A stretch of 64,000 nucleotides of DNA, taken from the NCBI GenBank assembly GCA_934466475.1, contig CAKSLI010000002.1, positions 62,001 through 126,000 on the forward strand, read 5' to 3'. Within the stretch, counting starts at the first letter, position 1, and every line of letters starts with the position of its first letter. The translations under genes and the position numbers were made by a program. Under the pieces are notes generated by a model. That model worked only from the letters and a program-made list of their open reading frames with translations. It was not told the DNA's origin and made no database searches. Shown here in pieces: positions 9,249 to 61,698 of the stretch. Source of the stretch: an uncultured Oscillospiraceae bacterium. Lineage in GTDB: Bacteria > Bacillota > Clostridia > Oscillospirales > Ruminococcaceae.

Positions 9249-9393
9249 GCGAAATTGCACAAGTTTTTTTAAAAAAAGCAAAAACTATTGTAAATTCGGC
9301 ACGATAAACAAAACAGGGTATCATGCTTTTGTGAATAATGGCAACGTTTCCGGTGAAACTCTGTTACACCTGCCACGGACTGCATTACCATAA

Positions 9394-9552
9394 GGGAACC
9401 TCTAAAAACCGGTTTGAAAAGGGAAAATGGGTAGAGTGCGCCGAATGCGATGAAAGCCGACGAAGTAAGGCTGTATGCCTTACGAGGAGGTTTGAAGAAG
9501 CATGCGGTGTGCTATACACATTTTCACTCAAACAAGGTTTTTAGAGGTGACC
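9394..9552. mobile_element. Family 1 miniature inverted-repeat element, interior type A (copy 1)
   Basis: 159 bp. Termini GGGAACCTCTAAAAACC and GGTTTTTAGAGGTGACC are imperfect inverted repeats, flanked by a 4-bp duplication ATAA (9390-9393 and 9553-9556). The interior is itself an imperfect palindrome, so a transcript would fold into one long hairpin. There is no coding capacity. It lies between the malE promoter and the 3' end of glgP. Nearly identical to the copy at 61524-61682. Confidence 0.88.
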
Positions 9553-9563
9553 ATAATAGAACA

Positions 9564-9583
9564 GGGGCGGACACCGCCGCCCC
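9564..9583 (-). terminator. glgP terminator
   Basis: Seven-bp GC stem GGGGCGG / CCGCCCC followed on the minus strand by TGTTCTATT, 33 bp after the glgP stop. Confidence 0.65.
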
Positions 9584-9615
9584 AATTCATAAATCCTGCG
9601 GAAAAACTGATTCTA

Positions 9616-11976
9616 TTATACCTTGCTGATGTGCCAGATATCCTTGGCATATTCTGCAATAGTGCGGTCGGAGCTGAACTTGCCTGCGCTGCATATATTC
9701 AGCCAGCACTTCTTTGCGAACGCAATTTCGTCCTTGTAGTCACGATTTGCTGCGAGCTTTGCCTTAACATAGCTGTCGAGGTCGCCGAGCAGGTAATAGT
9801 GATCCGGAACATGCCAGCTTGCGCCCTCCATAAGTGCGAAATACAGCTCCCTGAATGCGCCTGTGCCGCCGTCGGAAACGGTACCATCGATAAGGGAGGA
9901 TACAACGCGCTTTATCTTAGGATCGCTCTCGGTGATGTCGCGGGGAACATAGTTCGGCATGATCTTTTCGAGCTCCTCAACGGTCGCGCCGAAGATGTAC
10001 TCGTTCTCTGCGCCGGCTTCCTCGGCGATCTCAACGTTTGCGCCATCGAGTGTTCCGAGGGTCACTGCGCCGTTGAGCATGAGCTTCATGTTGCCGGTGC
10101 CGGAAGCCTCCGTGCCTGCTGTTGAGATCTGCTCGGATATATCAGCGGCAGCAACCAGCTTCTCCGCATAGGATACGCGGTAGTTGCTTACGAAAACAAC
10201 ATCCAGCAGACCCTTTGTAGCGGGATCGGAGTTTACAAGCTTTGCAACCTCGTTGATATACTTGATGATTCCCTTTGCGCGGTAGTAGCCCGGAGCGGAC
10301 TTCGCGCCGAAAATGAACGTGGTGGGTGTGAAATCCTTGATGCTGCCGTCCTTTATCTCATAGTAGAGGTAAAGGATCGAGAATGCGTTGAGAAGCTGGC
10401 GCTTGTATTCGTGCAGGCGCTTGATCTGGATATCGTAGATTGACTTGGGGTCTATCCTGATCCCCTCGGACTTCTCGATGTAATCGGCAAGCTGCTGCTT
10501 CTTGGTGTGCTTGATGTCGATGAAGCGGCGGAGCACGCTCTCATCATCGGCGTACTTCTTCAGCTCGCTGAGCTTGTCGAGGTCTGTTACCCAGCTGTCG
10601 GAGCCGAGGAGCTCGGTAATGAGCGCGGAGAGCTCCTGGTTGCATAGAGCCAGCCAGCGGCGCTGTGTGATACCGTTGGTCTTGTTCTGGAAGCGCTCGG
10701 GGTACAGCTCGTACCAATCCCTGAGCACGGTGGATTTCAGCAGCTCAGTGTGGATAGCGGCAACGCCGTTAACATAGGATGAGCCGAACACTGCAATGTT
10801 CGCCATGTGAACGGTGCCGTTCTTGATAAGGCGCATAACGGCGCGCTTTTCCTGCGGAACGTTCAGGCGGTGCATTTCGGATTCAAACGCCTCGTTGAGC
10901 ATTATCATAACGCTGTAAACATCGGGCACTACTCGCTCGATAAGGCGGCTGTCCCACTTCTCGAGCGCTTCCTGCATGATAGTGTGGTTGGTGTAATTGA
11001 ACACCTTCTTTGCAACGCCGAAAGCCTTGTCGAAGCTCCAGCCCTCGGACTTCATCGCAACGCGGATAAATTCCGGCAGGGCGATAACGGGGTGAGTGTC
11101 GTTCATCTGAATGCTGTTGTAATCGGCGAAGTTATCCATTGTGCCGAAAATCGCCTTATGCTTCCTGATGAGGTCGGCAACTGCGGCTGCGGAGAAGAAA
11201 TATTCCTGCTTCAGGCGGAGTATCTTTCCTGCCTCTGTTTCGTCATTAGGATAAAGAACGCGGGAGATATCCTCAGCGGCGCGCTTCTTTTCGCCTGCCT
11301 CGGTGAATTTGCTCTGATTGAAGAGGTCGAAGTCGAATTCGTCATCGGTCTCAGCCTGCCACAGACGGAGGGTGCCAACATTCTCAGTGCCGCAGCCGAT
11401 CACGGGGTAATCATAGGGGACTGCGTTCACATCGCCGTCGGCGTAGTGCACAACAACAGTCTCCTGCTCGCGGCGTATGCTCCACGGGTCGCCGTATCTC
11501 TGCCAGTCGTCAGCAGTCTCGGTCTGGAAGCCGTCCTTTATGCCCTGCTTGAACAGACCGTACTTGTAGCGTATACCGTAGCCGTCCAGCGGCAGGTCAA
11601 GGGAAGCCGCACTGTCAAGGAAGCATGCGGCAAGTCTGCCAAGGCCGCCGTTTCCGAGGGCTGCGTCCTCTACCTCCTCAAATTCGGAGATGTCAGCGCC
11701 GAGCTCCTTCAGCTCCTTTGCGGTGTCGCCGAGGATTCCGAGGCACAGCAGGTTGTTGTAAACTGCGCGTCCAACCAGGAACTCCATGGAAAGGTAGCTT
11801 GCCTTGCGCGCGTGGTCGTGCTTGTCGCGGCTCTTGTCCCATGCGGGGGTGAGTTCCTCCATAACAAGCCTGGAAACTGCGCAGTGGAGCTGATTCGGGG
11901 TGAGCTCCTTCGGCTGAGCGCGGTATTCCTTTTCACAGATGGAAACGAGCTTTTCCTTGAAATTTTCGATCTTCAT
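9616..11976 (-). CDS. glgP: Glycogen/maltodextrin phosphorylase (GT35)
   Basis: A 786-residue cytoplasmic enzyme that releases glucose-1-phosphate from alpha-1,4-glucans with orthophosphate. The pyridoxal-phosphate site is intact near residue 635-655: EASGTGNMKLMLNGA, in which the Lys holds the cofactor. The N-terminal part carries GNGGLGRLAACFLDS, also a family hallmark. Length fits the bacterial family (about 750-850). It starts 19 bp after malQ with AAAGGAG, so they form one operon. Maltodextrin versus glycogen preference is not decidable here; the malQ link favours maltodextrin. Confidence 0.95.
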   Translation of the reverse strand: MKIENFKEKLVSICEKEYRAQPKELTPNQLHCAVSRLVMEELTPAWDKSRDKHDHARKASYLSMEFLVGRAVYNNLLCLGILGDTAKELKELGADISEFEEVEDAALGNGGLGRLAACFLDSAASLDLPLDGYGIRYKYGLFKQGIKDGFQTETADDWQRYGDPWSIRREQETVVVHYADGDVNAVPYDYPVIGCGTENVGTLRLWQAETDDEFDFDLFNQSKFTEAGEKKRAAEDISRVLYPNDETEAGKILRLKQEYFFSAAAVADLIRKHKAIFGTMDNFADYNSIQMNDTHPVIALPEFIRVAMKSEGWSFDKAFGVAKKVFNYTNHTIMQEALEKWDSRLIERVVPDVYSVMIMLNEAFESEMHRLNVPQEKRAVMRLIKNGTVHMANIAVFGSSYVNGVAAIHTELLKSTVLRDWYELYPERFQNKTNGITQRRWLALCNQELSALITELLGSDSWVTDLDKLSELKKYADDESVLRRFIDIKHTKKQQLADYIEKSEGIRIDPKSIYDIQIKRLHEYKRQLLNAFSILYLYYEIKDGSIKDFTPTTFIFGAKSAPGYYRAKGIIKYINEVAKLVNSDPATKGLLDVVFVSNYRVSYAEKLVAAADISEQISTAGTEASGTGNMKLMLNGAVTLGTLDGANVEIAEEAGAENEYIFGATVEELEKIMPNYVPRDITESDPKIKRVVSSLIDGTVSDGGTGAFRELYFALMEGASWHVPDHYYLLGDLDSYVKAKLAANRDYKDEIAFAKKCWLNICSAGKFSSDRTIAEYAKDIWHISKV

Positions 11977-11995
11977 GATGATTCTCCTTTCAATA

Positions 11996-13513
11996 TCAGT
12001 TCTTCCCGCGCTTCTTTGCGGCGGGGACTTTTCGGTTGCAAATTTCGGTCATGCGGTCGAGGTAAGCCGCATTCTCAGCGGTGAAATCCTCCTCAAGAGT
12101 TCTCCAGCGCCAGTTATTGCCGACTGTGGAGGGCACGTTTATGCGCGCCTCGGTGCTGAATCCGCACAGCTCCTGAATGGTGGTCATAGCCATGTCAGCG
12201 GTGCTCTTCCATGCGAGGTCGATGAAAGCCCGCGGCAGTTCGGAAGCCCTGCGTATGCCGAGATATTCCTTCGTGAACTTCTTTGTGGCGCGGTCGAGTG
12301 TATTGTACCAGCCCAGCGCGGTGTCGCTGTCATGCGTGGAAGTATAGACAACGCAGTTCTGCGAGGTGTAGTTCTGCGGGAGATATTCGCTCTTTCCGGT
12401 TGGATCGAACGCGAACTGGAGCACCTTCATACCGGGGTAGGCCGCCTGCTTCAGCAGTCTGCGCACGGAGGGGGTGATTATTCCAAGGTCCTCGGCGATA
12501 ATGCCGTCCTTTCCGGTCTGCTCCTTGATAACGCGGAACAGGTCGTATTTCGGGCCCTCGCGCCATTCGCCGCCGTGGGCTGTCTTGTTCCCGAACGGAA
12601 TAGCGTAGTAGCTGTTGAAGCCGATGAAGTGGTCGATACGAACGATATCATACAGCTTCTTTGCGAAGCTCATTCTGCCGACCCACCAGCGGTAGTTTTC
12701 CTGCTTCATCCTGTCCCAGTCGTAGATAGGATTGCCCCACAGCTGACCGTCCGCGGAGAAAGCGTCCGGCGGGAAGCCTGCGACAACTGTCGGCACGCGG
12801 TTTTCATCAAGCTGGAACAGCTCCGGCTCGCACCATACGTCCGCGCTGTCGAGGGCGCAGTATATCGGGATATCGCCGATTATCTGAATGCCGTTAGCGT
12901 TTGCGTATTCCTTGAGCTTTGTCCACTGCTGGAAGAACTTGTACTGCAAGAATGCGTAGAAATCCATTTCAGTGGCGTACCGCTTCTCAGCCTTTGCAAC
13001 CGCCTGCGGTTCTCTCAGGCGGATCGGCTTTTCCCACTCGCTCCAGCTCTTGCCGCCGTGGGCGTCTTTCAAAGCCATGAAGAGTGTGTAGTTCTTCAGC
13101 CAGGCGTTTTCTTCAAGGAATGCCCTGTATTCTCCGGAAACGTTACCATTTTCAGACAGAACGAACCGCTTGTATGCGACTCTCATGACCTTGTAGAAAT
13201 TCTCGTACATGGTGGCGTAGTCGATGTATCTGAGATTTTCGCACCATTTGATGTCCGCATAGTCCGAGTGCTCCAGCAGACCCTCCTCCTCGAGAGTTTC
13301 AAGGCTGATGAAATAAGGGTTCCCGGCGAATATTGAGAAGCTCTGATAGGGCGAATCGCCGTAGCTTGTCTGTGACAGGGGCAGTATCTGCCAGAGGCTC
13401 TGACCGGCGCTTTTCAGCCAGTCCACGAAATTATAAGCCTCTCTGCCCATGGTGCCTATGCCGTATTTATTCGGCAGTGAGGCAATGTGCAGTAAAATGC
13501 CGCTTTTTCTCAT
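11996..13513 (-). CDS. malQ: 4-alpha-glucanotransferase (GH77, amylomaltase)
   Basis: A 505-residue disproportionating enzyme that moves maltosyl units between malto-oligosaccharides, releasing glucose and making chains long enough for GlgP. It has the GH77 opening SGILLHIASLPN, the nucleophile region VRIDHFIGF, the acid/base region IAEDLGII, and STHDSDT. The ATG at 13513 is chosen because GGAGGA lies 5 bp upstream; an ATG 12 bp further up overlaps that ribosome site. It sits between lacI (55 bp upstream) and glgP. Confidence 0.95.
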   Translation of the reverse strand: MRKSGILLHIASLPNKYGIGTMGREAYNFVDWLKSAGQSLWQILPLSQTSYGDSPYQSFSIFAGNPYFISLETLEEEGLLEHSDYADIKWCENLRYIDYATMYENFYKVMRVAYKRFVLSENGNVSGEYRAFLEENAWLKNYTLFMALKDAHGGKSWSEWEKPIRLREPQAVAKAEKRYATEMDFYAFLQYKFFQQWTKLKEYANANGIQIIGDIPIYCALDSADVWCEPELFQLDENRVPTVVAGFPPDAFSADGQLWGNPIYDWDRMKQENYRWWVGRMSFAKKLYDIVRIDHFIGFNSYYAIPFGNKTAHGGEWREGPKYDLFRVIKEQTGKDGIIAEDLGIITPSVRRLLKQAAYPGMKVLQFAFDPTGKSEYLPQNYTSQNCVVYTSTHDSDTALGWYNTLDRATKKFTKEYLGIRRASELPRAFIDLAWKSTADMAMTTIQELCGFSTEARINVPSTVGNNWRWRTLEEDFTAENAAYLDRMTEICNRKVPAAKKRGKN

Positions 13514-13568
13514 TGTTTCCTCCAAAATGTTCTGTTTAGCTGTATTTCAAAGCCGTCCGGCCGTGAAG

Positions 13569-14564
13569 TCATATCCTGCTGACGGAATCGCCGGGCTTGT
13601 ACTGTGCCTTTAAGGTCACATGACCGGCCTCCGCGCCGCTTTCTATCATGTTCACCAGCATTCTGACCGAAAGGCTGGAGATCTGGTGGAGCGGCTGTGC
13701 AAACGTGGAAATACGCGGGTTGGTGAACTCCGAGATATCAATGCCGTCGAAGCCTATCACCGAAATGTCCTGCGGAACGCGCAGCCCTATGTCGAGCAGC
13801 GCCCGGACAGCTCCCACCGCGATGATATCGGACATCGCGAATACTGCGGTCATGCCGCGGCATTCATGGTAGAGCGCCATTGCCGCCTCATACGCGGAGC
13901 TGAACGTATAGGAGCACAGCTCGCACACAGGATCCTTTACGCCATGTTCCTCGCATGCAGCTTTTACGCCGCTGTACCGGAGCCCTGACGGACCGTCCGA
14001 ATTGAGGTCGCCGCCGAGTATGCCTATGTTCTTATGCCCGAGGGAGAACAGCTGTTCCATAGCCGCCCTGCCGCCGGCAAAGTCGTCAATGCTTACGGAC
14101 GAAAGGTTTTTGAAGCCGAGCTCTGCGGCGCGTGCAGTACTCAGCACGCAGGGCACCGTGATGTTCGGAAAGCTCCTGCTGAAATTGCGTATGTCGCCGC
14201 CGAGAAAAATTATCCCGGAGGGCTTCTGCTCGGTGCAGAGCTGCTGTGCGCAGAGCACCTCGTCGTCCTGCTCGTCGATGTAGTTCACCGCCACCTGGAA
14301 TCCCGAGGCTGCCGCCGTAGTCTGCATCTGCTCGATGAGCGGCGAAAAGAACAGGTTGCTGCTGCCGTTCACTATGATCAGAATGGTTTTCGCCGCGGTC
14401 TGCCGCATTCTGCGGGCGTTGCCGTTGGGCGTATAGTTGTACTGCCTGATTACCTCGTTTATCCGTGCGCGTGTAGCCTCGCTTATTTCATCGCTGCCGT
14501 TGAGGGCGCGGGACACTGTGCTCACTCCGCACCCGGCGAGCTTTGCGATATCCTTTATAGTCAA
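13569..14564 (-). CDS. LacI-family regulator of the malQ-glgP operon
   Basis: A 331-residue LacI regulator: HTH from the first residues (MTIKDIAKLAGCGVSTVSRAL, so the HTH begins at residue 2) and a sugar-binding domain ending in GFDGIDISEFTNPRISTF. The start codon is TTG at 14564, fixed by the HTH and by AAGGTGA 6 bp upstream. It is the first gene of a lacI-malQ-glgP operon. A CG-centred palindrome directly after the -10 of its promoter suggests autoregulation of the whole operon. The operator differs from the TTTCGAAA boxes at malE, so two separate sugar signals are likely. Confidence 0.88.
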   Translation of the reverse strand: MTIKDIAKLAGCGVSTVSRALNGSDEISEATRARINEVIRQYNYTPNGNARRMRQTAAKTILIIVNGSSNLFFSPLIEQMQTTAAASGFQVAVNYIDEQDDEVLCAQQLCTEQKPSGIIFLGGDIRNFSRSFPNITVPCVLSTARAAELGFKNLSSVSIDDFAGGRAAMEQLFSLGHKNIGILGGDLNSDGPSGLRYSGVKAACEEHGVKDPVCELCSYTFSSAYEAAMALYHECRGMTAVFAMSDIIAVGAVRALLDIGLRVPQDISVIGFDGIDISEFTNPRISTFAQPLHQISSLSVRMLVNMIESGAEAGHVTLKAQYKPGDSVSRI

Positions 14565-19662: not shown

Positions 19663-19915
19663 GGTAACCTCTAAAAACCGGGACACGAGCAGATTTCGTA
19701 CATGACTTATATCAGATGCTAGGCGTCAAACCGCAGTAATACTGTATGTATTTCAAGGTTTGACAACGAAGCAGATGATACGGGATACGCTGAATATAGC
19801 GAAGCGTAACAAAATCAGACGCGTGAGTTTCGCGTTTGAACGTGTCGATTTTGTTTTATTCAGCGTTTCCCTTTGGCATAGAAATCTGCCGTGAAGGAGG
19901 TTTTTAGAGGTTACC
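19663..19915. mobile_element. Family 1 inverted-repeat element, interior type B, carrying a nested insertion
   Basis: 253 bp between GGTAACCTCTAAAAACC and GGTTTTTAGAGGTTACC, flanked by a 4-bp duplication ATAT (19659-19662 and 19916-19919). The left 120 bp and right 35 bp match the copy at 35257-35418 base for base as far as read. About 96 bp of unrelated sequence (about 19781-19876) replaces 5 bp in the right arm of the palindrome. It lies just upstream of the lipoprotein gene at 19985. Confidence 0.88.
19782..19871. mobile_element. Small palindromic element nested in the family 1 copy
   Basis: About 90 bp with 15-bp terminal inverted repeats: GGGATACGCTGAATA and TATTCAGCGTTTCCC (one mismatch). 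The interior also pairs with itself (AACAAAATC / GATTTTGTT), so the whole unit is one long imperfect hairpin. It has no coding capacity. Confidence 0.65.
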
Positions 19916-23812: not shown

Positions 23813-24123
23813 GGCAACACCGCACAAAGATCATTTATTGGATTTTGCACGTGTCTTGCTTGCATCTTTCTAGTTTGGCGCAAAAAATTACATGATTGCT
23901 CAACGGATATGTTCTGTGTTGCGCCAAACTTGCATCTTGCACAATTCGTCCTAGCAAGGCGACAGCCTTGCGTCGCTAGTTGTTGACTTGAAAACGCTAT
24001 CGCTTCCGTCAACAACTCCTCATTGTGCAATCTGACGAAAAATCGAGTATTGCCAATAAGCGAAGCGTAATATTGGCAATACTAACTGCGCAATACACGC
24101 ACAATCTTTGTGCGGTATTGCCT
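23813..24123. mobile_element. Family 2 element, large copy 1 (inverted relative to the others)
   Basis: About 311 bp between GGCAACACCGCACAAAGA and a matching inverted end TTTGTGCGGTATTGCC, with TA at 23811-23812 on the left and TTTA on the right. Relative to the 51342-51554 copy it contains two extra palindromic blocks: one bounded by AGTTTGGCGCAA / TTGCGCCAAACT (about 23868-23930) and one bounded by AGTTGTTGAC / GTCAACAACT (about 23976-24020). It lies in the gap upstream of the GGDEF gene; no other coding sequence is present in this stretch. Confidence 0.85.
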
Positions 24124-32389: not shown

Positions 32390-32697
32390 GGGCAACACCG
32401 CACAAAGATTGTGCGTGTATTGCGCAGGTAGATTAGCCAATAATACGCTTCGCTGATTGCCTAATCTCGATTTTTCGTCAGATAGTACAATGAGGAGTTG
32501 TTGACGGAAGCGATAGCGTATTCAAGTCAACAACTAGCGAAGCAAGGCTGGTCTTTCGGTCAGCCCCTCCGGCACTTCGTGCCACCTCCCCCGCAGGGGG
32601 AGACACGCCTTGCTAGGACGAATTGTGCAAGGTGACGGAAAATATGCAAGCAAGACACGTGCAAAATCCAATAAATGGTCTTTGTGCGGTGTTGCCA
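32390..32697. mobile_element. Family 2 element, large copy 2
   Basis: 308 bp between GGGCAACACCGCACAAAGA and TCTTTGTGCGGTGTTGCCA, flanked by TA (32388-32389 and 32698-32699). Compared with the 51342-51554 copy it has the AGTTGTTGAC / GTCAACAACT block and also a GC-rich block of about 57 bp (GGTCTTTCGGTCAGCCCCTC... to GGGGGAGACAC) inserted inside the AAGGCT / GCCTTGC stem. It fills the intergenic region, with no gene in it. Confidence 0.88.
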
Positions 32698-32702: not shown

Positions 32703-33869
32703 TTACTTGGTCTGTTTTGCAGCCTTTACAAGCGCCTTGATATAGGTAGGGTACTCCCACTTGAGAGTATCGCGGTGTATCATGCCGAAAATCTCGTTGC
32801 CATAGCCGTAAGCGTTGTTATCCCACAGGAACACCGGTATACCGTTGTCGCCGAACACCTTCGGGAAGTACTTTGCCCAGTTCAGCCTGTCGCTGAGATT
32901 GTTCTTGTTGACTGTACCGCATTCTCCGATTATCGCGCCGACTCCCTTGCTGATGAACCTGTCGTACAGCGTGTCGGAGAGCCACTTCAGCTCCCTTGTG
33001 CTGTCGCTGCTGTTTTCATCGAATTTGGTGGTGCCGTTCTCGTTCATAGCAAAATTGTAGGGAGAGTACGCGTGTATCGACACGATAAGGCTCTTGTCGT
33101 CCGGAACCGTGAATCCTTCAAGTGCGGAGGAGCTTGCCGCGTATGTCGGTATCATCAGCGCACGGTAACGGTTGTTTCCGCCGGTAGCACGTACCGTCTC
33201 CACAAAGCACTTGTTGTACTCATTGACAACGCTCCTGCCCTCGGAGTTTCCGCCGTTCCACTCGTAATTCGTATTCTTCCAGCGCGGCTCGTTCATTCCC
33301 TCGAATATAAGGCGCTCGCCATAGTCCTCAAAGCGCTCCGCTATCTGCGTCCACAGCTTCTTTATCTTCTTCTTTACGTCTTTCAGAGTGTCCTGATATG
33401 GGTCGTTCCAGTTCTCGTGATGTACGTTCAGGATAACGTACATGCCCTCGTCATAGGAGTAGTCCACGACCTCCTGTACCCTGTCGAACCACGCGCTGTC
33501 AACGTTGAAATTGCTGTCAACGTGGTTGAACCATGTCGTCGGGATACGCACGGCGTCAAAGCCCGCGTCCTTTACCGCAAGGATGAGCTCCTTTGTTGCC
33601 TTCGGATTGCCCCAGCTCGTTTCGCTGTTTATTCCGGAGCCTGTCGCGTCCAGCGTGTTGCCGAGATTCCAGCCGATGGTTATATCCTTGCAGAGCTGAA
33701 CGGAATCGACAGGGGCAGTGAGCACCTCGCTGTCCTTTACTTCCTCGGAAACACCTGAATCATTCCGGCTGGTAAGACCGAGCTGCTTCTCAGCGTCAGC
33801 CGCCTGCGGTCCTGTGAGAAGTGTAACGGTAGTTAAAAGCGCTATCGCCTTTGTCAGTATATTTATCAT
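32703..33869 (-). CDS. Secreted GH5 endoglucanase-type glycosidase (second gene of pair)
   Basis: 388 residues: cleavable signal peptide (about 1-25), short linker, then a GH5 catalytic domain with the opening IGWNLGNTLDATGSG, acid/base E194 (GMNEPRW) and nucleophile E316 (IIGECG). These motifs are those of GH5 subfamily 4 endoglucanases/licheninases/xyloglucanases. No CBM, dockerin or cell-wall anchor is seen, so it should be freely secreted. It begins 24 bp after the lipoprotein GH5 and is clearly its paralogue (shared blocks DAGFxAVRIPTTW, YVILNxHHExW, VRATGGNNxYR). Confidence 0.9.
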   Translation of the reverse strand: MINILTKAIALLTTVTLLTGPQAADAEKQLGLTSRNDSGVSEEVKDSEVLTAPVDSVQLCKDITIGWNLGNTLDATGSGINSETSWGNPKATKELILAVKDAGFDAVRIPTTWFNHVDSNFNVDSAWFDRVQEVVDYSYDEGMYVILNVHHENWNDPYQDTLKDVKKKIKKLWTQIAERFEDYGERLIFEGMNEPRWKNTNYEWNGGNSEGRSVVNEYNKCFVETVRATGGNNRYRALMIPTYAASSSALEGFTVPDDKSLIVSIHAYSPYNFAMNENGTTKFDENSSDSTRELKWLSDTLYDRFISKGVGAIIGECGTVNKNNLSDRLNWAKYFPKVFGDNGIPVFLWDNNAYGYGNEIFGMIHRDTLKWEYPTYIKALVKAAKQTK

Positions 33870-33893
33870 TGTCTTTGTCCTTTTCTTTAAATG

Positions 33894-35072
33894 TTATGCT
33901 GCGGAGGCTTCGTCCGCCGTCCCGCCGGAAGCTCCCTTCATCATGCCCTCAAGCAGGACCGGATATCTCACCTGATTCAGCTGCCTGTCGAACAGACCGA
34001 ACGTTTCTCCGCTCAGGAATGCGCCGTTGTCCCACCAGAAGCAGGGAATGCCGATAGCCTTGAACTTTGCGAAATAGTACTCCGCCCACTGCGCGCGGTA
34101 TTCCTCGTTGTCGCGGTTCATCGCGCCGCACTCGCCGATGATGACTGCCTGCCCCTTGCTGATGAACAGCCTGTCCAGGACCTCCGCAAGCGTGTCAATG
34201 TCGGAGGTGCACCCCGGCTTGGAGGCCAGCCACTTGTCACTTCCCGGATTCTGGAGCGCGAAGCCGTATGGTATGTATGCGTGTACGGAAACTATCAGAC
34301 GGTCATCGTCCGGTATCTCCAGCGCCGCAAGCGCGGGCTCAGTGGAATTCGCCGCATAGGGGCACACCATCAGGAAGCGGTACTGATTGTTCCCGCCGGT
34401 GGCTCTCACTGCGTCAACGAACACCTGATTCAGATGGTTAACCACCGTCCTGCCCTCTTCGTTGCCGCTGTTCCACTCGAAGTCAGTGTTCTTCCAGCGG
34501 GGCTCGTTCATGCCCTCGAAAATAAGGCGCTGGTCGTAATCTTTGAACGCCTCCGCTATCTGCGTCCAGCTGCTGGTCATCTTCGCGGAGATCTCCTCTT
34601 CCTTGTCCGCATAGGGCTGGTACCATTCCTCGTGGTGCATGTTCAGGATAACGTACATGCCGATATCGTATGCGTAGTCTACTATCTCCTTTACGCGAGC
34701 CATCCACTCAGGGCTGATATTTCCGTTGTCGTCCATCTGGCGCTCCCATGTTGTCGGGATACGCACGGCGTTGAAGCCCGCGTCCTTTACTGCCTGGATG
34801 AGCTCCGGCGTGGTGGTTTTATTGCCCCAGCTCGTCTCCTGAGACAGTCCGCTGCCTCCGGTGGCGTCCAGCGTATTTCCTAGGTTCCACCCTATTTTTA
34901 TGTCCGCAGTCAGCTGCATTGCGGTAAGCTCCGTGTCGAATTCATCGGCAGTCTGGACGTTCTCCGTTCCCTGACCGTCCGAACCGCTGTCCTCTGCGGA
35001 CTTTGAACAGCCCGCAGCAGTCATGCAGAGCGCCGCCGTCAGCACCGCGGCTATCATTTTCCTGAAATTCAT
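33894..35072 (-). CDS. GH5 endoglucanase-type lipoprotein (first gene of pair)
   Basis: 392 residues with lipoprotein signal (AAGC, Cys 22), a short Ser/Gly/Glu linker, and a GH5 domain: IGWNLGNTLDATGG, acid/base E190 (GMNEPRW), nucleophile E314 (IIGECG). It would act at the cell surface on beta-1,4- or mixed beta-glucans. With the secreted paralogue downstream it makes a tandem pair, one tethered and one free. Cellobiose 2-epimerase at 43.7 kb could act on the products. Strong promoter at 35135-35163. Confidence 0.9.
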   Translation of the reverse strand: MNFRKMIAAVLTAALCMTAAGCSKSAEDSGSDGQGTENVQTADEFDTELTAMQLTADIKIGWNLGNTLDATGGSGLSQETSWGNKTTTPELIQAVKDAGFNAVRIPTTWERQMDDNGNISPEWMARVKEIVDYAYDIGMYVILNMHHEEWYQPYADKEEEISAKMTSSWTQIAEAFKDYDQRLIFEGMNEPRWKNTDFEWNSGNEEGRTVVNHLNQVFVDAVRATGGNNQYRFLMVCPYAANSTEPALAALEIPDDDRLIVSVHAYIPYGFALQNPGSDKWLASKPGCTSDIDTLAEVLDRLFISKGQAVIIGECGAMNRDNEEYRAQWAEYYFAKFKAIGIPCFWWDNGAFLSGETFGLFDRQLNQVRYPVLLEGMMKGASGGTADEASAA

Positions 35073-35220: not shown

Positions 35221-35249
35221 TTGACTTTTCAGGCATGCTGTGATACAAT
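35221..35249 (+). promoter_or_regulatory. Promoter upstream of the transglutaminase-like gene
   Basis: TTGACT (35221-35226), 17-bp spacer, TACAAT (35244-35249). A family 1 element begins 8 bp after the -10 box, so it would be transcribed in the leader. Confidence 0.68.
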
Positions 35250-35256
35250 ATTACAT

Positions 35257-35418
35257 GGTAACCTCTAAAAACCGGGACACGAGCAGATTTCGTACATGAC
35301 TTATATCAGATGCTAGGCGTCAAACCGCAGTAATACTGTATGTATTTCAAGGTTTGACAACGAAGCAGATGATATAAGTCATAGAAATCTGCCGTGAAGG
35401 AGGTTTTTAGAGGTTACC
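35257..35418. mobile_element. Family 1 inverted-repeat element, interior type B (intact copy)
   Basis: 162 bp between GGTAACCTCTAAAAACC and GGTTTTTAGAGGTTACC, with a perfect 4-bp duplication ACAT (35253-35256 and 35419-35422). The interior arms pair: GCAGATTTC...ATGACTTATATC with GATATAAGTCAT...GAAATCTGC, so the unit is one long palindrome. It is the uninterrupted sister of 19663-19915. Confidence 0.9.
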
Positions 35419-44931: not shown

Positions 44932-45009
44932 TTGTTCAAACCTCTTAGAAATGTGTTTTTGAATCTTCTGCTCCTGAAATCGAAGCGAGAAGTGCCTGGA
45001 TGCTAGGAA

Positions 45010-45048
45010 CGATGACATAGGCTAGGCTGAAGCCTGCCTATGTCATCG
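45010..45048. other. Long perfect palindrome between secA and epimerase
   Basis: CGATGACATAGGC is repeated inverted (GCCTATGTCATCG) around an inner AGGCT-GA-AGCCT. There is no T-run on either side, so it is not a standard terminator; it may be an mRNA 3'-end stabiliser for secA or a mobile palindromic unit. Confidence 0.6.
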
Positions 45049-45082
45049 TGACGACGCAGACATGCGCTTATCGCTTCAATTT

Positions 45083-47850: not shown

Positions 47851-47892
47851 GGTCACCTCTAAAACTCTCCTTTACGGCTTTTAGAGGTTCCC
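47851..47892. mobile_element. Family 1 remnant or minimal element, 42 bp, in the secA leader
   Basis: GGTCACCTCTAAAA and TTTTAGAGGTTCCC, inverted, with a 14-nt spacer. Flanks TAAA and TGAA are a decayed 4-bp duplication. It lies between the secA promoter and its start. Confidence 0.7.
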
Positions 47893-48525: not shown

Positions 48526-48685
48526 GGGAACCTCTAAAAACCGGTTTGAAAAGTGAAAATGGGCAGAGTGCGCCGAATGCTATGAAAGCCGACGAAGTAA
48601 GGCTGTATGCCTTACGAGGAGGTTTGACGAAGCAGGCAGTGTGCTATACACATTTTCACTCAAACAAGGTTTTTAGAGGTGACCA
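48526..48685. mobile_element. Family 1 inverted-repeat element, interior type A (copy 2)
   Basis: 160 bp, termini GGGAACCTCTAAAAACC and GGTTTTTAGAGGTGACC, 4-bp duplication ATTA (48522-48525 and 48686-48689). It differs from copies 1 and 3 at a handful of positions and so looks older. It lies between the divergent Rrf2 and spoIIP genes, ending 27 bp before the spoIIP start. Confidence 0.88.
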
Positions 48686-51296: not shown

Positions 51297-51676
51297 GAGC
51301 AGACTCCAGGTCTGTTCATTGCAGCTTGTCGAAAAAATCTAAGGCAATACCGCACAAAGATTGTGCGTGTATTGCGCAGTTAGTATTGCCAATATTACGC
51401 TTCGCTTATTGGCAATACTCGATTTTTCGTCAGATTGTACAATGAGGACGACGCAAGGCTGTCGCCTTGCTAGGACGAATTGTGCAAGATGACGGAAAAG
51501 ATGCAAGCAAGACACGTGCAAAATCCAATAAATGGTCTTTGTGCGGTGTTGCCCTAAATTTGCCCGCGAAGCGGGGGACTTGGGCAAAGCCCAAAGTCCA
51601 GGGATTGTTCGGCGGGAAAGTCACTTTAGCGCCTTTTTCGACGTTCTTTGAGCAGACGCCGGGTCTGCTCATTGCA
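51297..51676. repeat. Composite repeat: duplicated hairpin around a CAGCTTGTCGAAAAA module
   Basis: Two direct copies of a hairpin (GAGCAGAC..GGTCTGTTC at 51297-51318; GAGCAGACGCCGGGTCTGCTC at 51650-51670), each followed by ATTGCA. Between them lies CAGCTTGTCGAAAAAATC, a family 2 element, and AAATTTGCCCGCGAAGCGGG plus further hairpins. The same module without the element occurs at 56154-56195, also between two copies of a hairpin. No gene in this stretch. Confidence 0.65.
51342..51554. mobile_element. Family 2 element, large copy 3 (simplest form)
   Basis: 213 bp between AGGCAATACCGCACAAAGA and TCTTTGTGCGGTGTTGCCC, flanked by TA (51340-51341 and 51555-51556). It contains the internal stem GTATTGCCAATA.../...TATTGGCAATAC and the AAGGCT/AGCCTT-type stem but none of the extra blocks of copies 1 and 2. 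Confidence 0.9.
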
Positions 51677-53053: not shown

Positions 53054-53127
53054 GCGGGTGTAGTTCAATGGTAGAATCCCAGCCTTCCAAGCTGGTCGCG
53101 TGGGTTCGATTCCCATCACCCGCTCCA
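53054..53127 (+). tRNA. tRNA-Gly (TCC)
   Basis: Acceptor arms GCGGGTG / CACCCGC, T-loop GGTTCGATTCC, encoded CCA. Anticodon TCC in CTTCCAA. Confidence 0.95.
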
Positions 53128-53132
53128 AGTAT

Positions 53133-53209
<77 letters not shown>

Positions 53210-53215
53210 TACATG

Positions 53216-53292
53216 GTGGGTATGGCTTAGTAGGTTAAAGCGTCGGATTGTGGTCCCGAAGATCGTGGGTTCGACTCCCACTACCCACCCCA
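53216..53292 (+). tRNA. tRNA-His (GTG)
   Basis: GTGGGTA / TACCCAC acceptor, anticodon GTG in TTGTGGT, encoded CCA. The base at 53215 is G opposite discriminator C, as expected for the extra G-1 of tRNA-His. The last anticodon-stem pair is A-C. Confidence 0.92.
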
Positions 53293-53298
53293 CATAAT

Positions 53299-53329
53299 AA
53301 AAGGCATAGGTTTTATCCTGTGCCTTTTT
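53299..53329 (+). terminator. Terminator after the Gly-Arg-His tRNAs
   Basis: AAAGGCATAGG / CCTGTGCCTTT hairpin ending in TTTTTC. Read-through would be needed to reach tRNA-Gln. Confidence 0.7.
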
Positions 53330-53338
53330 CATTAATCC

Positions 53339-53414
53339 TGGGACGTAGCCAAGCGGTAAGGCAAGGGACTTTGACTCCCTCATTCCCTGGGTTCGAATCC
53401 CAGCGTTCCAACCA
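53339..53414 (+). tRNA. tRNA-Gln (TTG)
   Basis: TGGGACG / CGTTCCA acceptor (one G-U), anticodon TTG in CTTTGAC, T-loop GGTTCGAATCC, encoded CCA. Confidence 0.95.
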
Positions 53415-57363: not shown

Positions 57364-57873
57364 TTACCCGCCGATGAGCCTGTGCTCACCGCATATCTCT
57401 TCTACTGTTTCCTCGATGGATTTGCCCTGACATTCCACGGTGATGTCCGCGTATTCCTCGTAGAGAGCGCGCCGCCTGCGGAAAACGTCCTCTATGGAAT
57501 CTCCCGGGCGCATGGCGATTCCTCTGGTCTTTATGTTGTGGAGCCGCCTTTCGACCTGCTCCACAGGCAGCGAAAGGTAATAGACATATCCGTGCTCCTT
57601 CAGGTGAAGCATCGCACTGCGGGAGTATACCGCGCTGCCGCCGGTGGCGATGACGCAGCCGCCCTCCTCCGCAACGGACATTATCGCGCGCTCCTCCTCA
57701 ATGCAGAACCAGTCAAGTCCTTTTGTGTCGATTATCTCCTGAAGCAGCATTCCCGTGCGCTCCTGTATAGTGATATCCGTATCAATGAAACGGAAGCCCA
57801 TGGCTTTCGCCAGCAGCACGCCGACAGTGGATTTACCGCAGCCGGGCATTCCGATAAGTATTATGTTCTTCAT
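57364..57873 (-). CDS. aroK: Shikimate kinase
   Basis: 169 residues, normal length. Phosphorylates shikimate with ATP in aromatic amino acid synthesis. Walker A GMPGCGKST (8-16), shikimate-binding DTD (32-34), CVIATGGSAV (GGG-like loop, here GGS) and RRRALYEEYAD near the lid/adenine region. It lies between tsaD and the CPBP gene with gaps of 22 and 25 bp, an operon of otherwise unrelated housekeeping genes. Confidence 0.93.
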   Translation of the reverse strand: MKNIILIGMPGCGKSTVGVLLAKAMGFRFIDTDITIQERTGMLLQEIIDTKGLDWFCIEEERAIMSVAEEGGCVIATGGSAVYSRSAMLHLKEHGYVYYLSLPVEQVERRLHNIKTRGIAMRPGDSIEDVFRRRRALYEEYADITVECQGKSIEETVEEICGEHRLIGG

Positions 57874-57895
57874 TTCTTCTGTTCCCTTTTGATTA

Positions 57896-58909
57896 TTACC
57901 AAGTCACGCGGTCAAGGCGCATTGTCGCGACTGCGTTGAGGTCTGCGCCTGCGGTGTGTCCCGCCTGGAATTCATAGAAAGCCTGGCAGCCTATCATTGC
58001 CGCATTGTCGCCGCAGAGCTCTATCGGCGGGTAGTACACCTTCATGCCGTTGTAGTCCGCGCGCTGCTGAAGCATGGAGCGCAGCCCGGAATTCGCCGCA
58101 ACTCCCCCGGCGAGCGCAAGGGTCTTGTATCCGCTCTCCTTTGCCGCAGTGATGAACTTCTGCGTCAGTATATCGCTCACCGTATACTGGAAGCAGGCCG
58201 CAAGGCTGTTAACGTCTATTTCCTCGCCCTTCTGCTTTGAGTTGTGTATAAGGTTTATTACCGCCGTTTTAAGCCCGGAAAAGCTGAAATCATAAGGATT
58301 TGCAGTATGCGGGTGCGGAAGCTGATATTTTTTCCTGTCGCCGGTCTTTGCGGCGCGGTCGATGTGCACTCCTCCCGGATAGGGATAGCCCATGGCTCTT
58401 GCCGCCTTGTCGAAAGCTTCCCCGGCGGCGTCGTCCACCGTCTGACCTATCGTCTCGAATTCCGTCCAGCTGTTGACCTTAACTATATGACTGTGGCTTC
58501 CGGAGGCGACAAGGCAGAGATACGGCGGCTCCAGCTCCGGGTGGGCAAGGTAATTTGCCGCTATGTGCCCGCGTATATGGTGCACCGGGATAAGCGGCTT
58601 GTTAAGGGAAAGCGCCAGTCCCTTTGCAAAGTTTACTCCCACCAGCAGCGCCCCGATGAGCCCCGGCGCAAAGCTGACGGCTATCGCGTCAACGTCCTGG
58701 GCCTTCATGCCCGCTTTTGCCAGAGCCTCGTCCACTACTCCGACTATGCTTTCGCAGTGGCGGCGGCTGGCTATCTCCGGGACGACCCCGCCGTAAAGCT
58801 TGTGCTCCTCTATCTGTGTTGCGACTACGGAAGAGATTATCTCCCTGCCGTCGCGTATAACAGCGGCTGCGGTCTCATCACAGCTGCTTTCGATTGCTAA
58901 AATATCCAT
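57896..58909 (-). CDS. tsaD: tRNA N6-adenosine threonylcarbamoyltransferase
   Basis: 337 residues. Completes the t6A37 modification of ANN-reading tRNAs together with TsaB and TsaE. Hallmarks: ILAIESSCDETAAAVI (3-18), metal ligands HHIRGHIAANYL, ASGSHSHIV, GGVAANSGLR and a C-terminal MIGCQAFYEFQAG. TsaB/TsaE are not in the window. Confidence 0.96.
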   Translation of the reverse strand: MDILAIESSCDETAAAVIRDGREIISSVVATQIEEHKLYGGVVPEIASRRHCESIVGVVDEALAKAGMKAQDVDAIAVSFAPGLIGALLVGVNFAKGLALSLNKPLIPVHHIRGHIAANYLAHPELEPPYLCLVASGSHSHIVKVNSWTEFETIGQTVDDAAGEAFDKAARAMGYPYPGGVHIDRAAKTGDRKKYQLPHPHTANPYDFSFSGLKTAVINLIHNSKQKGEEIDVNSLAACFQYTVSDILTQKFITAAKESGYKTLALAGGVAANSGLRSMLQQRADYNGMKVYYPPIELCGDNAAMIGCQAFYEFQAGHTAGADLNAVATMRLDRVTW

Positions 58910-58930
58910 TTGCCTGACCTCGTATCCTGA

Positions 58931-59635
58931 TTATTTTACGTCCGGTTTTCTGGACGTTATGAATTCTATCGCGCGCTCTATCGAGCTCCTGACATGCTCC
59001 ATGTCCTCGCTGTGGAGCTTCCCGGCGTTGCGGTAGTCAAAGCTGTTGCAGAATTCGTTGACATCGCTGTTGAGCTCCTTTATGTAGTTCTCCACCAGCT
59101 TGTCTGTCGCCTCGATGAACGGCTTCTGATCGGGCTTTGACAGCTTTGAGGGAACATGCGACATTATCAGATTATAATGCGGAATACAGATGTATTTCTG
59201 CGAAGCGTACAGATTCCGGAACTTTCCGTCATCCTTGAACATCGTGAATACGGTGTCCAGCATATGCTCAACGCCCCAGTCGACCTTGCTGCAAACAAAG
59301 CAGGTGTTTTCTATCTCGCTGCATTTCTTAGCCTTGGCGCCCTTGGTGAAGAATATGCTCTTGTTCTCGAATATCTCGCCGCGCAGGGTGCCGAGGTAGG
59401 TGTTCAGCATAAGCCCCAGCGAAAGGCGGTTGTTCTGCCTGAGCAGACTGTTGAAGTGCGTGTGGCAGAAGCCGAGGCGGTTAGTCTCCATGCGGACGTC
59501 CGGCTCCATCATCGCAGCGCCCATGATGTACTCGCTGATGTGCTGCTCCACGGTATTGCGCATGGCGCAGATAGGACAGCCCTCCCGCGGCTCAAACACC
59601 TCGTTTATCGGTATTGTTAAAATGCTTTCTCTCAT
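58931..59635 (-). CDS. DUF6062-type cysteine-rich protein
   Basis: 234 residues, cytoplasmic. N-terminal IPINEVFEPREGCPICAMRN, then GFCHTHFN, and NTCFVCSKVDWGVEHML: three CxxC/CxxH-like pairs suggesting a bound metal. It resembles DUF6062 as I recall it (Clostridia, no known role). It has AAAGGAAG upstream and shares a promoter region with the divergent ogg gene. First gene of the run DUF6062-tsaD-aroK-CPBP. Confidence 0.75.
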   Translation of the reverse strand: MRESILTIPINEVFEPREGCPICAMRNTVEQHISEYIMGAAMMEPDVRMETNRLGFCHTHFNSLLRQNNRLSLGLMLNTYLGTLRGEIFENKSIFFTKGAKAKKCSEIENTCFVCSKVDWGVEHMLDTVFTMFKDDGKFRNLYASQKYICIPHYNLIMSHVPSKLSKPDQKPFIEATDKLVENYIKELNSDVNEFCNSFDYRNAGKLHSEDMEHVRSSIERAIEFITSRKPDVK

Positions 59636-59692
59636 TTTATCTTCCTTTCATGTGCTGAAAATGAAAACTCGCTGAAAAATCAGCGCATACTC

Positions 59693-59737
59693 TTGCAATT
59701 ATACTCCTATTGTATTATAATTAAGACAAATAATCAA
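59693..59737. promoter_or_regulatory. Two divergent, fully overlapping promoters
   Basis: Plus strand (ogg): TTGCAA 59693-59698, 17 bp, TATAAT 59716-59721. Minus strand (DUF6062): TTGATT 59732-59737, 17 bp, TACAAT 59709-59714. The two -10 boxes are 1 bp apart, so polymerase can occupy only one at a time. Confidence 0.72.
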
Positions 59738-59756
59738 GGGGTTTACGAAAAATTTC

Positions 59757-60560
59757 ATGAATTACACTATACAAAATCCGAATTTTGATATCCACCGGAC
59801 GTTTCTCTGCGGTCAGTGCTTCCGCTGGAGCGAGGACGAAACCGGCGCTTTCTCCGGCATAGCCGGCGGAAAGGAGCTCACCGTCACCCAGAGCGGCAGC
59901 GAAATAACCCTGCACGATATAGACGATCAGGATATCCCCTTCTGGGAAAATTACTTCGACATGGGCACGGACTACGCCGCCTGCATATCTGCCCTCTCTG
60001 CGGACGAAACGCTGAAAAAGGCGTGCGCCAGCGCTCCGGGGATCAGGATACTGCGGCAGGAGCCGTTCGAAACGCTCATCAGCTTCATCATCAGCCAGAA
60101 CAACAATATCCCCCGGATATCTGGCATTATCGGGCGTCTGTGTGAGAATTTCGGCGAAAAAACGGCAAACGGCCGGGCTTTCCCGACAGTAAAGCAGCTT
60201 TCCGGCATAACGCCGGAGGATCTCGCCCCGCTGCGCGCGGGATTCCGGGCGCGGTATATCTGCGACGCGGTAAGGCGCGTGGAATCCGGCGAGGTCGATT
60301 TCGCGGAGATAGACGCGCTCCCGCTTGCCGAGGCGCGCGACAGGCTCAAGCTCATAACAGGAGTTGGCGACAAGGTCGCGGACTGCGTTCTGCTGTTCGC
60401 GTTCCATAAAACTGACGCATTCCCTAAGGACGTGTGGGTAAAGCGCCTTATGGCGGAGTTCTACCCGGATGGTCTGCCGGAATGCACACGAGGAATAGAG
60501 GGCATAGCCCAGCAGTACCTGTTCGATTATGTCAGGAACAGCGGCGGGCTCGCCAAGTGA
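59757..60560 (+). CDS. ogg: 8-oxoguanine DNA glycosylase/AP lyase (OGG1 type)
   Basis: 267 residues. Removes 8-oxoguanine from DNA. OGG1 features: CGQCFRW (18-24), SQNNNIPRI (113-121), helix-hairpin-helix GVGDKVADCVLLF with catalytic Lys 206, and catalytic Asp 225 in FPKDVWVKR; their 19-residue spacing equals that of human OGG1 (249/268). Short for a three-domain OGG, as in Clostridium enzymes. There is no clear ribosome site near the ATG and the leader is only about 28 nt. Confidence 0.93.
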   Translation: MNYTIQNPNFDIHRTFLCGQCFRWSEDETGAFSGIAGGKELTVTQSGSEITLHDIDDQDIPFWENYFDMGTDYAACISALSADETLKKACASAPGIRILRQEPFETLISFIISQNNNIPRISGIIGRLCENFGEKTANGRAFPTVKQLSGITPEDLAPLRAGFRARYICDAVRRVESGEVDFAEIDALPLAEARDRLKLITGVGDKVADCVLLFAFHKTDAFPKDVWVKRLMAEFYPDGLPECTRGIEGIAQQYLFDYVRNSGGLAK

Positions 60561-60573
60561 AAGGAAGATACAT

Positions 60574-61074
60574 ATGTATTGTCAGAAATGCGGTAAGGAA
60601 ATAGCGGCAGGCAGTTTATTCTGCACATGGTGCGGCGGGAAGCAGGAAATGCCTGTTCCACAGCCGGAGGTCATCCCGCAGCAGAGCCCGGCTCAGCAGG
60701 AGCCTGTCCAGGAAAGCGATACTCCCATTACGCAACAGCCGGATGCTCCGGCGGCGACCATGACCATGGAAAAAACAGAGGAAGCCCAGACCCCGCAGGC
60801 GGAATCCAGCGCTCCCACAGAGGCATCTTCAGCGGAAACGCCCCAGGAAAGCGCATCTGAGCCAGCTCAGAATAATACGTCAGAAACAACGGCGGCTCCC
60901 GGCGCGGAAGCTCCTAACGTTGATTTCAGCGGCGAAGTTAAACTTGCTGATAAGACGGAAAAAACCCGGAAATATTACACAACAGCTCATCTTGTGATAT
61001 GCCTTGCAGCGGCAGGTATCATGGCGGCAGCTGCGGGAATATTCGCGGGATTGTATTTCTCGGTCATCGGCTGA
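60574..61074 (+). CDS. Zinc-ribbon membrane protein of unknown function
   Basis: 166 residues: N-terminal zinc ribbon (MYCQKCGKEIAAGSLFCTWCG, Cys at 3, 6, 17 and 20), a low-complexity Pro/Gln/Glu/Ala/Ser linker (about 25-135) and one C-terminal transmembrane helix (about 143-165). AAGGA precedes the ATG, 13 bp after ogg. The zinc ribbon should be cytoplasmic. Function unknown. Confidence 0.82.
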   Translation: MYCQKCGKEIAAGSLFCTWCGGKQEMPVPQPEVIPQQSPAQQEPVQESDTPITQQPDAPAATMTMEKTEEAQTPQAESSAPTEASSAETPQESASEPAQNNTSETTAAPGAEAPNVDFSGEVKLADKTEKTRKYYTTAHLVICLAAAGIMAAAAGIFAGLYFSVIG

Positions 61075-61111
61075 CACGATATATTGTTAAATCTTAGACA
61101 TACTCTGCTAT

Positions 61112-61146
61112 ATACGGCGGCTCTTAACGGGCCGCCGTATTTTTTG
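61112..61146 (+). terminator. Terminator of ogg operon
   Basis: Perfect 10-bp stem ATACGGCGGC / GCCGCCGTAT followed by TTTTTTG. Confidence 0.9.
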
Positions 61147-61162
61147 TGCAAATAAGCGATAA

Positions 61163-61304
61163 GTTTTCAACCCTTTCAACGGTGAAAACTGTTGAAAGCC
61201 CTGTTAAAACTGTTGAATGGTTGATTACTTTTTCGGATTTTTCAACATAATCTTTCCTGAAACCCGCAAAACCGCGTAAAATCACAGCTTGTCATGTTGA
61301 AAAC
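61163..61304. repeat. Cluster of TGTTGAAA / TTTCAACA motifs
   Basis: Six copies in 142 bp: TTTTCAAC 61164-61171, TTTCAAC 61174-61180, TGTTGAAA 61190-61197, TGTTGAAT 61211-61218, TTTTCAACA at about 61238-61246 and TGTTGAAAAC 61295-61304, in both orientations. No gene lies between 61075 and 61523. Confidence 0.5.
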
Positions 61305-61523
61305 ACGGTTAAAACCGTGGAAAACTTTTTCTGGAAATTAGTAAAAGGATTTACACCCAGTGTTAAATCCCTGACAGGTTTCGACATTATGCCAAAAACA
61401 GCAGACCGGATTTGTAGGATATGGAGAAATCGTGTAACATCGGTTTCTTAACGCAGAATTAGCGGAAATTCGACAAAAAAAGTGATACAATAGTAAAAAA
61501 TCAATTAGGATTTTTGTGGTAAT

Positions 61524-61682
61524 GGTCACCTCTAAAAACCGGTTTGAAAAGGGAAAATGGGTAGAGTGCGCCGAATGCGATGAAAGCCGACGAAGTAAGG
61601 CTGTATGCCTTACGAGGAGGTTTGAAGAAGCAGTCGGTGTGCTATACACATTTTCACTCAAACAAGGTTTTTAGAGGTGACC
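61524..61682. mobile_element. Family 1 inverted-repeat element, interior type A (copy 3)
   Basis: 159 bp, termini GGTCACCTCTAAAAACC and GGTTTTTAGAGGTGACC (the most symmetrical pair), 4-bp duplication TAAT (61520-61523 and 61683-61686). Nearly identical inside to copy 1. It ends 16 bp before the next gene, so its right flank supplies the sequence just ahead of the ribosome site. Confidence 0.9.
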
Positions 61683-61698
61683 TAATGGAGGTATTTAT

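Follow-up and report, generated by a model that had tools for sequence, protein, structure and literature searches.

We analysed a window of 64,000 nt from an uncultured Oscillospiraceae bacterium (GenBank assembly GCA_934466475.1, contig CAKSLI010000002.1, positions 62,001 to 126,000 of the forward strand); positions below are those of the window unless a locus in another genome is named. The window holds five copies of a family of miniature inverted-repeat transposable elements (MITEs), here called family 1, which is the MITE family of an insertion sequence (IS) of the IS5 family. The two kinds of interior found in these copies, A and B, represent one structured payload in two variants; it is a hairpin that also occurs between the ends of a second transposon family. 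We put the probability at a little under 0.8 that these are IS5-family MITEs with a payload that is conserved in its fold, is carried between at least two sets of ends, and is selected as a folded nucleic acid, likely RNA.

One hairpin core in four classes of interior

The first-pass annotation of this DNA regarded interiors A and B as unrelated and concluded that the elements carry different payloads. Both statements have to be given up: A and B have a central core of ~77 nt in common, a model made from A alone finds B (E 9e-11), and this single hairpin core is what the payloads share, in a second family with other ends as well. When the A and B interiors are compared directly, their central alignment beats all but 2 of 2000 shuffles. 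The covariance model R1, built from 31 A cores and without any B sequence, matches the B core at 35301-35377 at an E-value of 8.9e-11 and the one at 19707-19783 at 1.4e-9, and a sequence-only model of the same A alignment gives the window B cores about 0.0025. The A core at 9436-9512, which R1 scores at E 2.7e-22, was within its training set.

The alignment of class A (alignment A1) holds 35 of the 39 A units. The other four (L164, L201, L222 and L272; loci are given L numbers and genomes G numbers) were left out on account of divergence, loss of the inner loop or inverted stretches in their cores; they were eligible for the count of loop letters given below. In model A3, four of the 35 rows, those with identical cores, were dropped. 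Class alignments excluded duplicates and units deviating by more than 6 from the class reference length (more than 14 for the loop count).

Units of related genomes have two further classes of interior, C and D, and the covariance scans of relatives covered 29, 34, 50 or 100 chosen loci each, out of 362. In 29 chosen loci, R1 found class C in 9/9, ordinary B in 5/5 (a diverged B-like unit, L106, was missed) and D in 2/12. It gave no match at E<=0.05 in a comparison set of 50 loci (764 kb), drawn from other Clostridia plus a small number of other bacteria. A broader model, R3, made from A plus B, C and two D cores, picked up D loci beyond these, ten at E<1e-6 and some with weaker scores, and its single match in the same 50 other loci is at chance level (E 0.57). 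R3 was trained with the window cores at 51425 and 44992 and with L187, so that its E-values for these three follow from the training; L188, L235 and the additional D loci played no part in building it. With Rfam 15, the window gives tRNAs alone at gathering scores, and up to E 10 the B unit gives no match and an A unit one meaningless match (E 7).

The same payload occurs between other ends. Three units in the window have 17-bp ends GGCAAYACCGCACAAAG and perfect 4-bp duplications, and their payload is of the D type. The unit at 51343..51553 (plus strand, CTAA on both sides) has its core hairpin at 51425-51497, which R1, independent of this core, matches at E 6.6e-7. The unit at 23813..24122 (minus strand, TTTA/TTTA) has a weak R3 match at 23928-23995 (E 0.003), and in the unit at 32391..32696 (plus strand, ATAG/ATAG), where further insertions split the payload, there is no full-length core match. 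The second-family interior aligns with D units of relatives that have family-1 ends at 77% identity over 93 bp (E 5e-13). L287, a unit with family-1 ends in G439, can be aligned with the 23813 unit over 192 columns with gaps, including a further nested palindrome, with a score of 102 where the maximum in 300 shuffles is 24. No family-1 end (<=3 mismatches) lies inside the second-family units, so the second family is not a case of simple nesting, and ends and payload have probably been recombined. The same payload between two sets of ends means that payload and ends behave as exchangeable modules, and it is the payload, not the ends alone, that several elements have in common.

The core is also found without any transposon ends. 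At 44975..45078, on the plus strand between the stop codon of secA and the next gene, there is a core hairpin that has neither family-1 nor family-2 ends; its core, 44991-45068, is matched by R1 at E 3.9e-7 (R1 is independent of it) and lies on the strand opposite to secA and the next gene. Similar end-less hairpins occur in relatives (L187 1333-1411, L188 4266-4344, L235 3168-3247): those of G191 and G250 lie just downstream of secA and on the secA strand, and that of G448 lies elsewhere. R3 was trained with the G191 hairpin and without those of G250 and G448. The three have common outer arms and follow the loop rule described below or nearly so; by eye, terminator-like stems lie on either side of them and no duplication is obvious. 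The end-less hairpins may be a resident form of the payload or a further mobile family.

Fold and co-varying internal loops

Three helices, separated by two unpaired internal loops, make up the core, an imperfect hairpin of ~77 nt. In the 35 aligned A units, 97.8% of the consensus cells are standard pairs, compared with at most 47% for slid structures, and 17 of the 55 pairs have changed on both sides (shuffled mean 6.9). The seven B sequences have changes on both sides in 12/59 pairs, a count that includes a replaced helix segment in L330. For the core of all classes together, 95.9% of cells are paired (slid structures <=51%) and 22/25 pairs have changed on both sides compared with a shuffled mean of 14.4 (184 cells compared with 44.8), counts that lean to the structure because this alignment, A4, was fitted to the model.

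The two internal loops, each 3x2, flank the middle helix in opposite orientation, are closed by C-G and G-C, and read 5'-CGYZG-3' against 5'-CXAG-3'. Their variable letters go together: X=A occurs with YZ=CA (52 loops), X=G with AA (53) and X=T with AC (18), and 123 of the 149 loops fit this rule, which was derived from the same sequences as are counted. The rule holds in 29/38 outer loops of class A (shuffled mean 12.1, maximum 23 in 2000) and in 32/39 inner loops (shuffled mean 24.1, maximum 31), in a shuffle test that shared ancestry inflates and for which class A alone is informative, the loops of B, C and D varying too little. Standard pairing would be possible between X and Z in 9/149 loops and between X and Y in 24/149. 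The combinations G/AA and T/AC recur in both class A loops, and by eye a tandem G-A adjoins the loop in class A. We read this as a non-canonical internal loop whose three letters must match.

Family-1 units in the window

Family-1 ends are the 17-bp sequence GGTMACCTCTAAAAACC, which has 12 matches in the window at <=3 mismatches; in 100 dinucleotide shuffles the mean was 0.11 and the largest count 1. Ten of the matches are the termini of five units, all on the plus strand. Three units have interior A: A1 at 9394..9552 (ATAA on both sides, core at 9436-9512), A2 at 48526..48684 (ATTA, core at 48568-48644) and A3 at 61524..61682 (TAAT, core at 61566-61642). Two have interior B: 19663..19915 (ATAT) and 35257..35418 (ACAT), with the cores given above. 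All five were described in the first-pass annotation, with their ends of ~17 bp and perfect 4-bp duplications, and all five are present at the places given there, except that the 48526 unit ends at 48684 and not at 48685. That annotation overlooked the remaining two end matches, which form a mini unit of 42 bp, two ends with almost no interior, at 47851..47892 (plus strand, just upstream of secA); its flanks, TAAA and TGAA, are alike at 3/4 positions.

The five units were also correctly described as long palindromes and as nearly identical within each type. Compared with 100 shuffles each, they fold at z scores of -10.7 to -15.3 (-3.5 for the 42-bp pair), and with flanks included the A copies are 91-95% identical over 173 nt and the B copies 99% over 123 nt. 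All five are located between open reading frames (ORFs). The 253-bp unit at 19663 is a 162-bp B unit with a foreign stretch inserted in its right arm. The inserted stretch (~19782-19873) is palindromic, measures ~92 bp and has tens of matches in the relatives G435, G439 and G440, which makes it a separate dispersed repeat. Composites like this one, joined at slightly different points, were also observed in L278 and L331.

The insertion sequence behind family 1

The first-pass annotation proposed that non-autonomous elements are moved by one type of transposase acting on the ends, and the full-length IS that it suggested looking for, with such ends and a 4-bp duplication, is present in relatives. 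In L117 (G054), positions 517-1757 are a complete element of 1241 bp with an open transposase gene of 343 aa, flanked by TATA/TATA, whose ends agree with the family-1 pattern at 14 and 15 of 17 positions. The transposase has PF01609 and PF05598 (DDE_Tnp_1 and DUF772) above cut-off, and transpos_IS5_4 (NCBIfam), with a cut-off of 140, gives scores of 272 (L117) and 269 bits. A similar full-length element in L116 (G354) has ends that are alike at 14-15 of 17 positions, flanks without a duplication and one stop flagged in the matched stretch; the same genome also has D units. A protein search with the L117 transposase listed at least 7994 relatives out of 7999 candidates scored.

Exact ends also lead into IS genes. 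In G083 an exact end, GGTAACCTCTAAAAACC, begins a truncated IS5-type gene in which PF05598 is present and the transpos_IS5_4 match is partial and below cut-off; this gene piece has matches in 9 of the 396 genomes searched at E<=1e-10. On six contig ends (five in G017, one in G216) the exact 17-mer leads into a start-codon stretch that resembles the one of the G083 gene (L096), where a transposase gene follows the 17-mer. The contigs of G017 break inside the IS, five in its left end and four in its right end (GGTAACC... and GGGAACC...), and three of the four right-end flanks match left-end flanks in reverse complement, which is the expectation for 4-bp duplications.

Based on these elements, we consider it near certain that family 1 is moved by an IS5 transposase. 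A DDE transposase supplied in trans would recognise the 17-bp ends, excise or copy the short palindrome, and join it to a 4-bp staggered, A+T-rich target to give the 4-bp duplication, and the window's own species would presumably have such a transposase. The unit interiors have no convincing match in three IS sequences (115 interiors, best E 0.002).

Other candidate movers and sources were set aside. Around the distant IS5 transposases of G191, G343 and G299 (30-32% identity) the loci examined contain no ends of this type, and a rhizobial relative, L125, lacks them in the end test, so the family-1 ends cannot be traced to rhizobia. Phage and plasmid records have no match to the A unit, and viral contigs contain neither the exact 17-mer nor a relative of the L117 transposase.

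Distribution in related genomes

The ends are widespread among relatives, where the first-pass annotation had suggested looking for them. The exact 17-mer occurs in 13 of the 396 genomes of the bacterial family (reversed-pattern control 0). If one mismatch is allowed, 17 of 18 chosen genomes have it (control 0), among them G008 with 99 ends, as do 26 of the 43 genomes in the nearest genus; there the reversed-pattern control gave six matches in six genomes.

From 17-mer end matches and BLAST of A and B in selected loci we gathered 136 distinct units, pairing each end with the nearest opposite end within 330 bp at <=3 mismatches; this is not a random sample, and G008 alone contributes 22 of the 136. 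By BLAST, 57 belong to class A, 12 to B, 23 to C (158 bp) and 30 to D (172 bp), and 14 are short or unrelated. Both flanks are available for 134 units, and 83 of these have an exact 4-bp duplication, compared with a mean of 8.2 and a largest value of 17 in 1000 permutations of the flanks. Split by class, exact duplications are present in 34/56 A, 6/12 B, 15/23 C, 20/29 D and 8/14 unclassed units. Targets are A+T-rich, the commonest duplications being ATAA (the most frequent), TAAA, TATA and ATTA. Thirteen minis of 42-54 bp have no payload, and eight of them have exact duplications. G008 (loci L081, L082, L138, L144, L168-L184 and L186) includes minis of 51 bp in which the ends stand almost back to back and the 4-bp duplications are kept.

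Absence at orthologous places

Kinship of the window was judged by SecA. At the protein level the closest among the 396 genomes are G191 (81% aa identity) and G250 and G343 (80%); in secA DNA (the first ~540 bases), the closest among the 43 genomes of the G191 genus are G435 and G440 (86%) and G439 and G441 (85%). Glycogen phosphorylase was rejected as a guide, its best match being 73% in G299, whose genus otherwise gives 57-59%.

Comparison of orthologous places, also proposed in the first-pass annotation, supports the mobility claimed there. The 42-bp unit is absent in G435, G439, G440 and G441, with both flanks alignable in all four, and a fifth, more distant relative, G430, has a different sequence at this site with no family-1 end. 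In G435 and G439, the two relatives for which both flanks are available, the Rrf2-type gene and the next gene, which flank the 48526 unit in the window, have no such unit between them; the single end match in this locus of G435 has four mismatches and sits in the part that matches rrf2, not at the site. Two units in G441 are ~99% identical to the 61524 unit, one of them with 2 differences in 156 aligned positions, in a genome whose secA DNA is 85% identical to that of the window, and the database match of the 61524 unit ends at the unit border. Movement between species is the simpler explanation of this near identity; strong sequence constraint would also explain it. At the 19663 and 35257 sites the neighbouring genes are not adjacent in the matches across the four relatives, and at the 61524 site the right flank alone aligns.

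What the hairpin may do

In our view selection most likely acts on the payload in its folded form, probably as RNA where a unit lies in a transcribed intergenic region, and the payload would have been transferred between transposon ends by recombination. By analogy with the Correia elements of Neisseria, such an RNA might take part in the processing or stability of mRNA through an RNase III-like double-strand nuclease, and we rate a role of this kind as slightly worse than an even bet. One result that favours RNA on the motif strand is that, when the count is limited to pairs whose prediction on both strands uses no G-U, minority G-U cells are found in 31 columns and minority A-C cells in 11. 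The excess of G-U over A-C is modest, and the columns are not independent.

Several observations weigh against selection of a single, widely shared payload moved by an IS5 transposase, in addition to the limits given above for the all-class counts and the loop rule. R1 misses 10 of the 12 D units, and most D units join solely through a model that includes two D cores. The hairpin is without any matching Rfam family. An exact duplication is lacking in 51 of the 134 units with both flanks (30 of these are alike at 3/4 positions). G017, the genome richest in exact left ends, has the IS solely as broken contig ends, the ends of the intact IS in G054 deviate at 2-3 of 17 positions, and a transposase with such ends is known from relatives and attributed to the window's species by extension. 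Among 37 units there is no preferred orientation to the flanking ORFs (12, 11, 7 and 7, with mechanically called ORFs), which does not favour a role as sense-strand RNA; sense-oriented placement in 5' leaders, which the window units had suggested, was rejected on this result. Among the A units, perfect pairing has replaced the inner loop in L222, and stretches of L201 and L272 are inverted locally. Since palindrome self-repair thus occurs here, compensatory changes are possible without selection.

The most serious alternative is that family 1 is an ordinary MITE family in which A, B, C and D diverged from one IS5 derivative and the hairpin was kept without host function, through palindrome self-repair or a preference of transposition for hairpins. 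We give this somewhat less than even odds. The ends, the duplications and the IS are all of the ordinary kind, copy numbers peak in a few genomes as with selfish elements, orientation to ORFs is unbiased, self-repair has left its traces in the three units just named, and the 8 of 13 payload-free minis with duplications suggest that the payload may be dispensable for movement, unless these units shrank in place. Self-repair should, however, erase unpaired loops, yet most are kept and their letters co-vary; the payload is also present between other ends and in end-less hairpins, and the interiors resemble the IS sequences no more than stated above. It is also conceivable, and in our view rather unlikely, that the hairpin acts as single-stranded DNA, as a cruciform or a lagging-strand hairpin bound by a host or transposase protein during movement. 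Long near-perfect palindromes that travel with transposons and have no bias to ORFs would fit this, but selection at the DNA level does not predict the difference between G-U and A-C columns, and minis that lack the core still have duplications. Finally, hairpins between ORFs, as in the window, and core relatives that stand alone and adjoin terminator-like stems (by eye) might bring to mind transcription terminators or REP-like intergenic hairpins that are fixed by host selection and are not mobile. For the units with family-1 ends this is contradicted by the 4-bp duplications, by the orthologous places that lack a unit, by an autonomous IS with similar ends and by the near identity across species at unrelated sites, and we consider it highly improbable; the contradiction does not extend to the hairpin at 44975-45078.

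Beyond selection of the fold, a more specific and tentative proposal, to which we give about one chance in three, is that the hairpin core with its co-varying loops represents a structured non-coding RNA family, so far undescribed and belonging to this group of bacteria, that was captured by MITEs with at least two sets of ends. If this is true, the end-less hairpins between terminator-like stems (those next to secA in G191 and G250 and the one in G448) would be its resident form. MITEs would then be vehicles that carry a functional RNA module into regions that are transcribed, and would correspond among DNA transposons to the short interspersed nuclear elements (SINEs) of eukaryotes, which carry host RNA sequences.

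A promoter-like sequence was noted at the 35257 unit: TTGACT-17-TACAAT, within 35221-35257, with TG before the second hexamer and 7 bp before the unit. With this spacing a transcript would start at about the edge of the unit. The number of promoter-like matches in this region, two compared with a shuffle mean of 1.4, is at chance level.

Comparison with known elements

Taken by itself, the MITE family adds a new member to a known kind, the IS5-family MITEs. As in IS5-family elements and their MITEs, terminal inverted repeats are common to a 1.24-kb IS coding for a 343-aa DDE transposase and to short forms without transposase, and the target duplication is 4 bp long. Unlike IS5 itself, the family uses A+T-rich 4-mers as targets, ATAA most commonly, and not CTAR/YTAR. 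That target is a property of IS5 itself and the IS5 group, not of the whole family, and its absence here weakens assignment to the IS5 subgroup only. The family differs from usual IS5 MITEs in that its interior is a structured hairpin payload with no convincing match to the IS.

REPs, the repetitive extragenic palindromes, depend on a RAYT transposase (Y1 HUH) and are not known to make target duplications, whereas family 1 has a DDE transposase, inverted terminal repeats and 4-bp duplications. The likeness, as far as the portions of the accounts available to us go, is in dispersed intergenic hairpins mobilised in trans, as with REPINs and REP hairpins (PMC3116915, PMC12306157). In the available part of the account of the Correia elements of Neisseria (CREE, or NEMIS), these are described as non-coding inverted-repeat elements that measure ~150 bp, contain a conserved core, frequently lie on the 5' side of genes and insert mostly at TA, with transcript hairpins that are bound or cleaved by RNase III (PMC2649163). 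The units described here are likewise short non-coding inverted-repeat elements with a conserved core, but they have 4-bp A+T-rich duplications in place of a TA target, ends other than those of CREE and an unrelated host, and the same part of the account reports neither a single core between different ends nor co-varying internal loops (PMC2649163). A MITE of Porphyromonas gingivalis with a nested minisatellite is, in the part of its description available, another bacterial MITE with an added internal module, which there is a minisatellite and not a hairpin common to several families (PMC4596501).

We found no description of a co-varying hairpin payload in MITEs with different ends in the literature searched, which left most subscription papers outside and yielded known analogues and unrelated work. 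The many copies across many species permit the direct question of whether a MITE interior is selected. The inside of a bacterial MITE is usually regarded as a meaningless remnant of an IS. If the hairpin acts in RNA, its natural insertions in gut-type Clostridia would be ready-made tests of a portable regulatory module.

Other features of the window

Two tandem related ORFs on the minus strand at 32703-35072 resemble, by eye, glycoside hydrolase family 5 cellulases, and this pair carries the repeats D2, D6, D7 and D9. Four tRNA genes (Gly, Arg, His and Gln) are clustered at 53054-53414.

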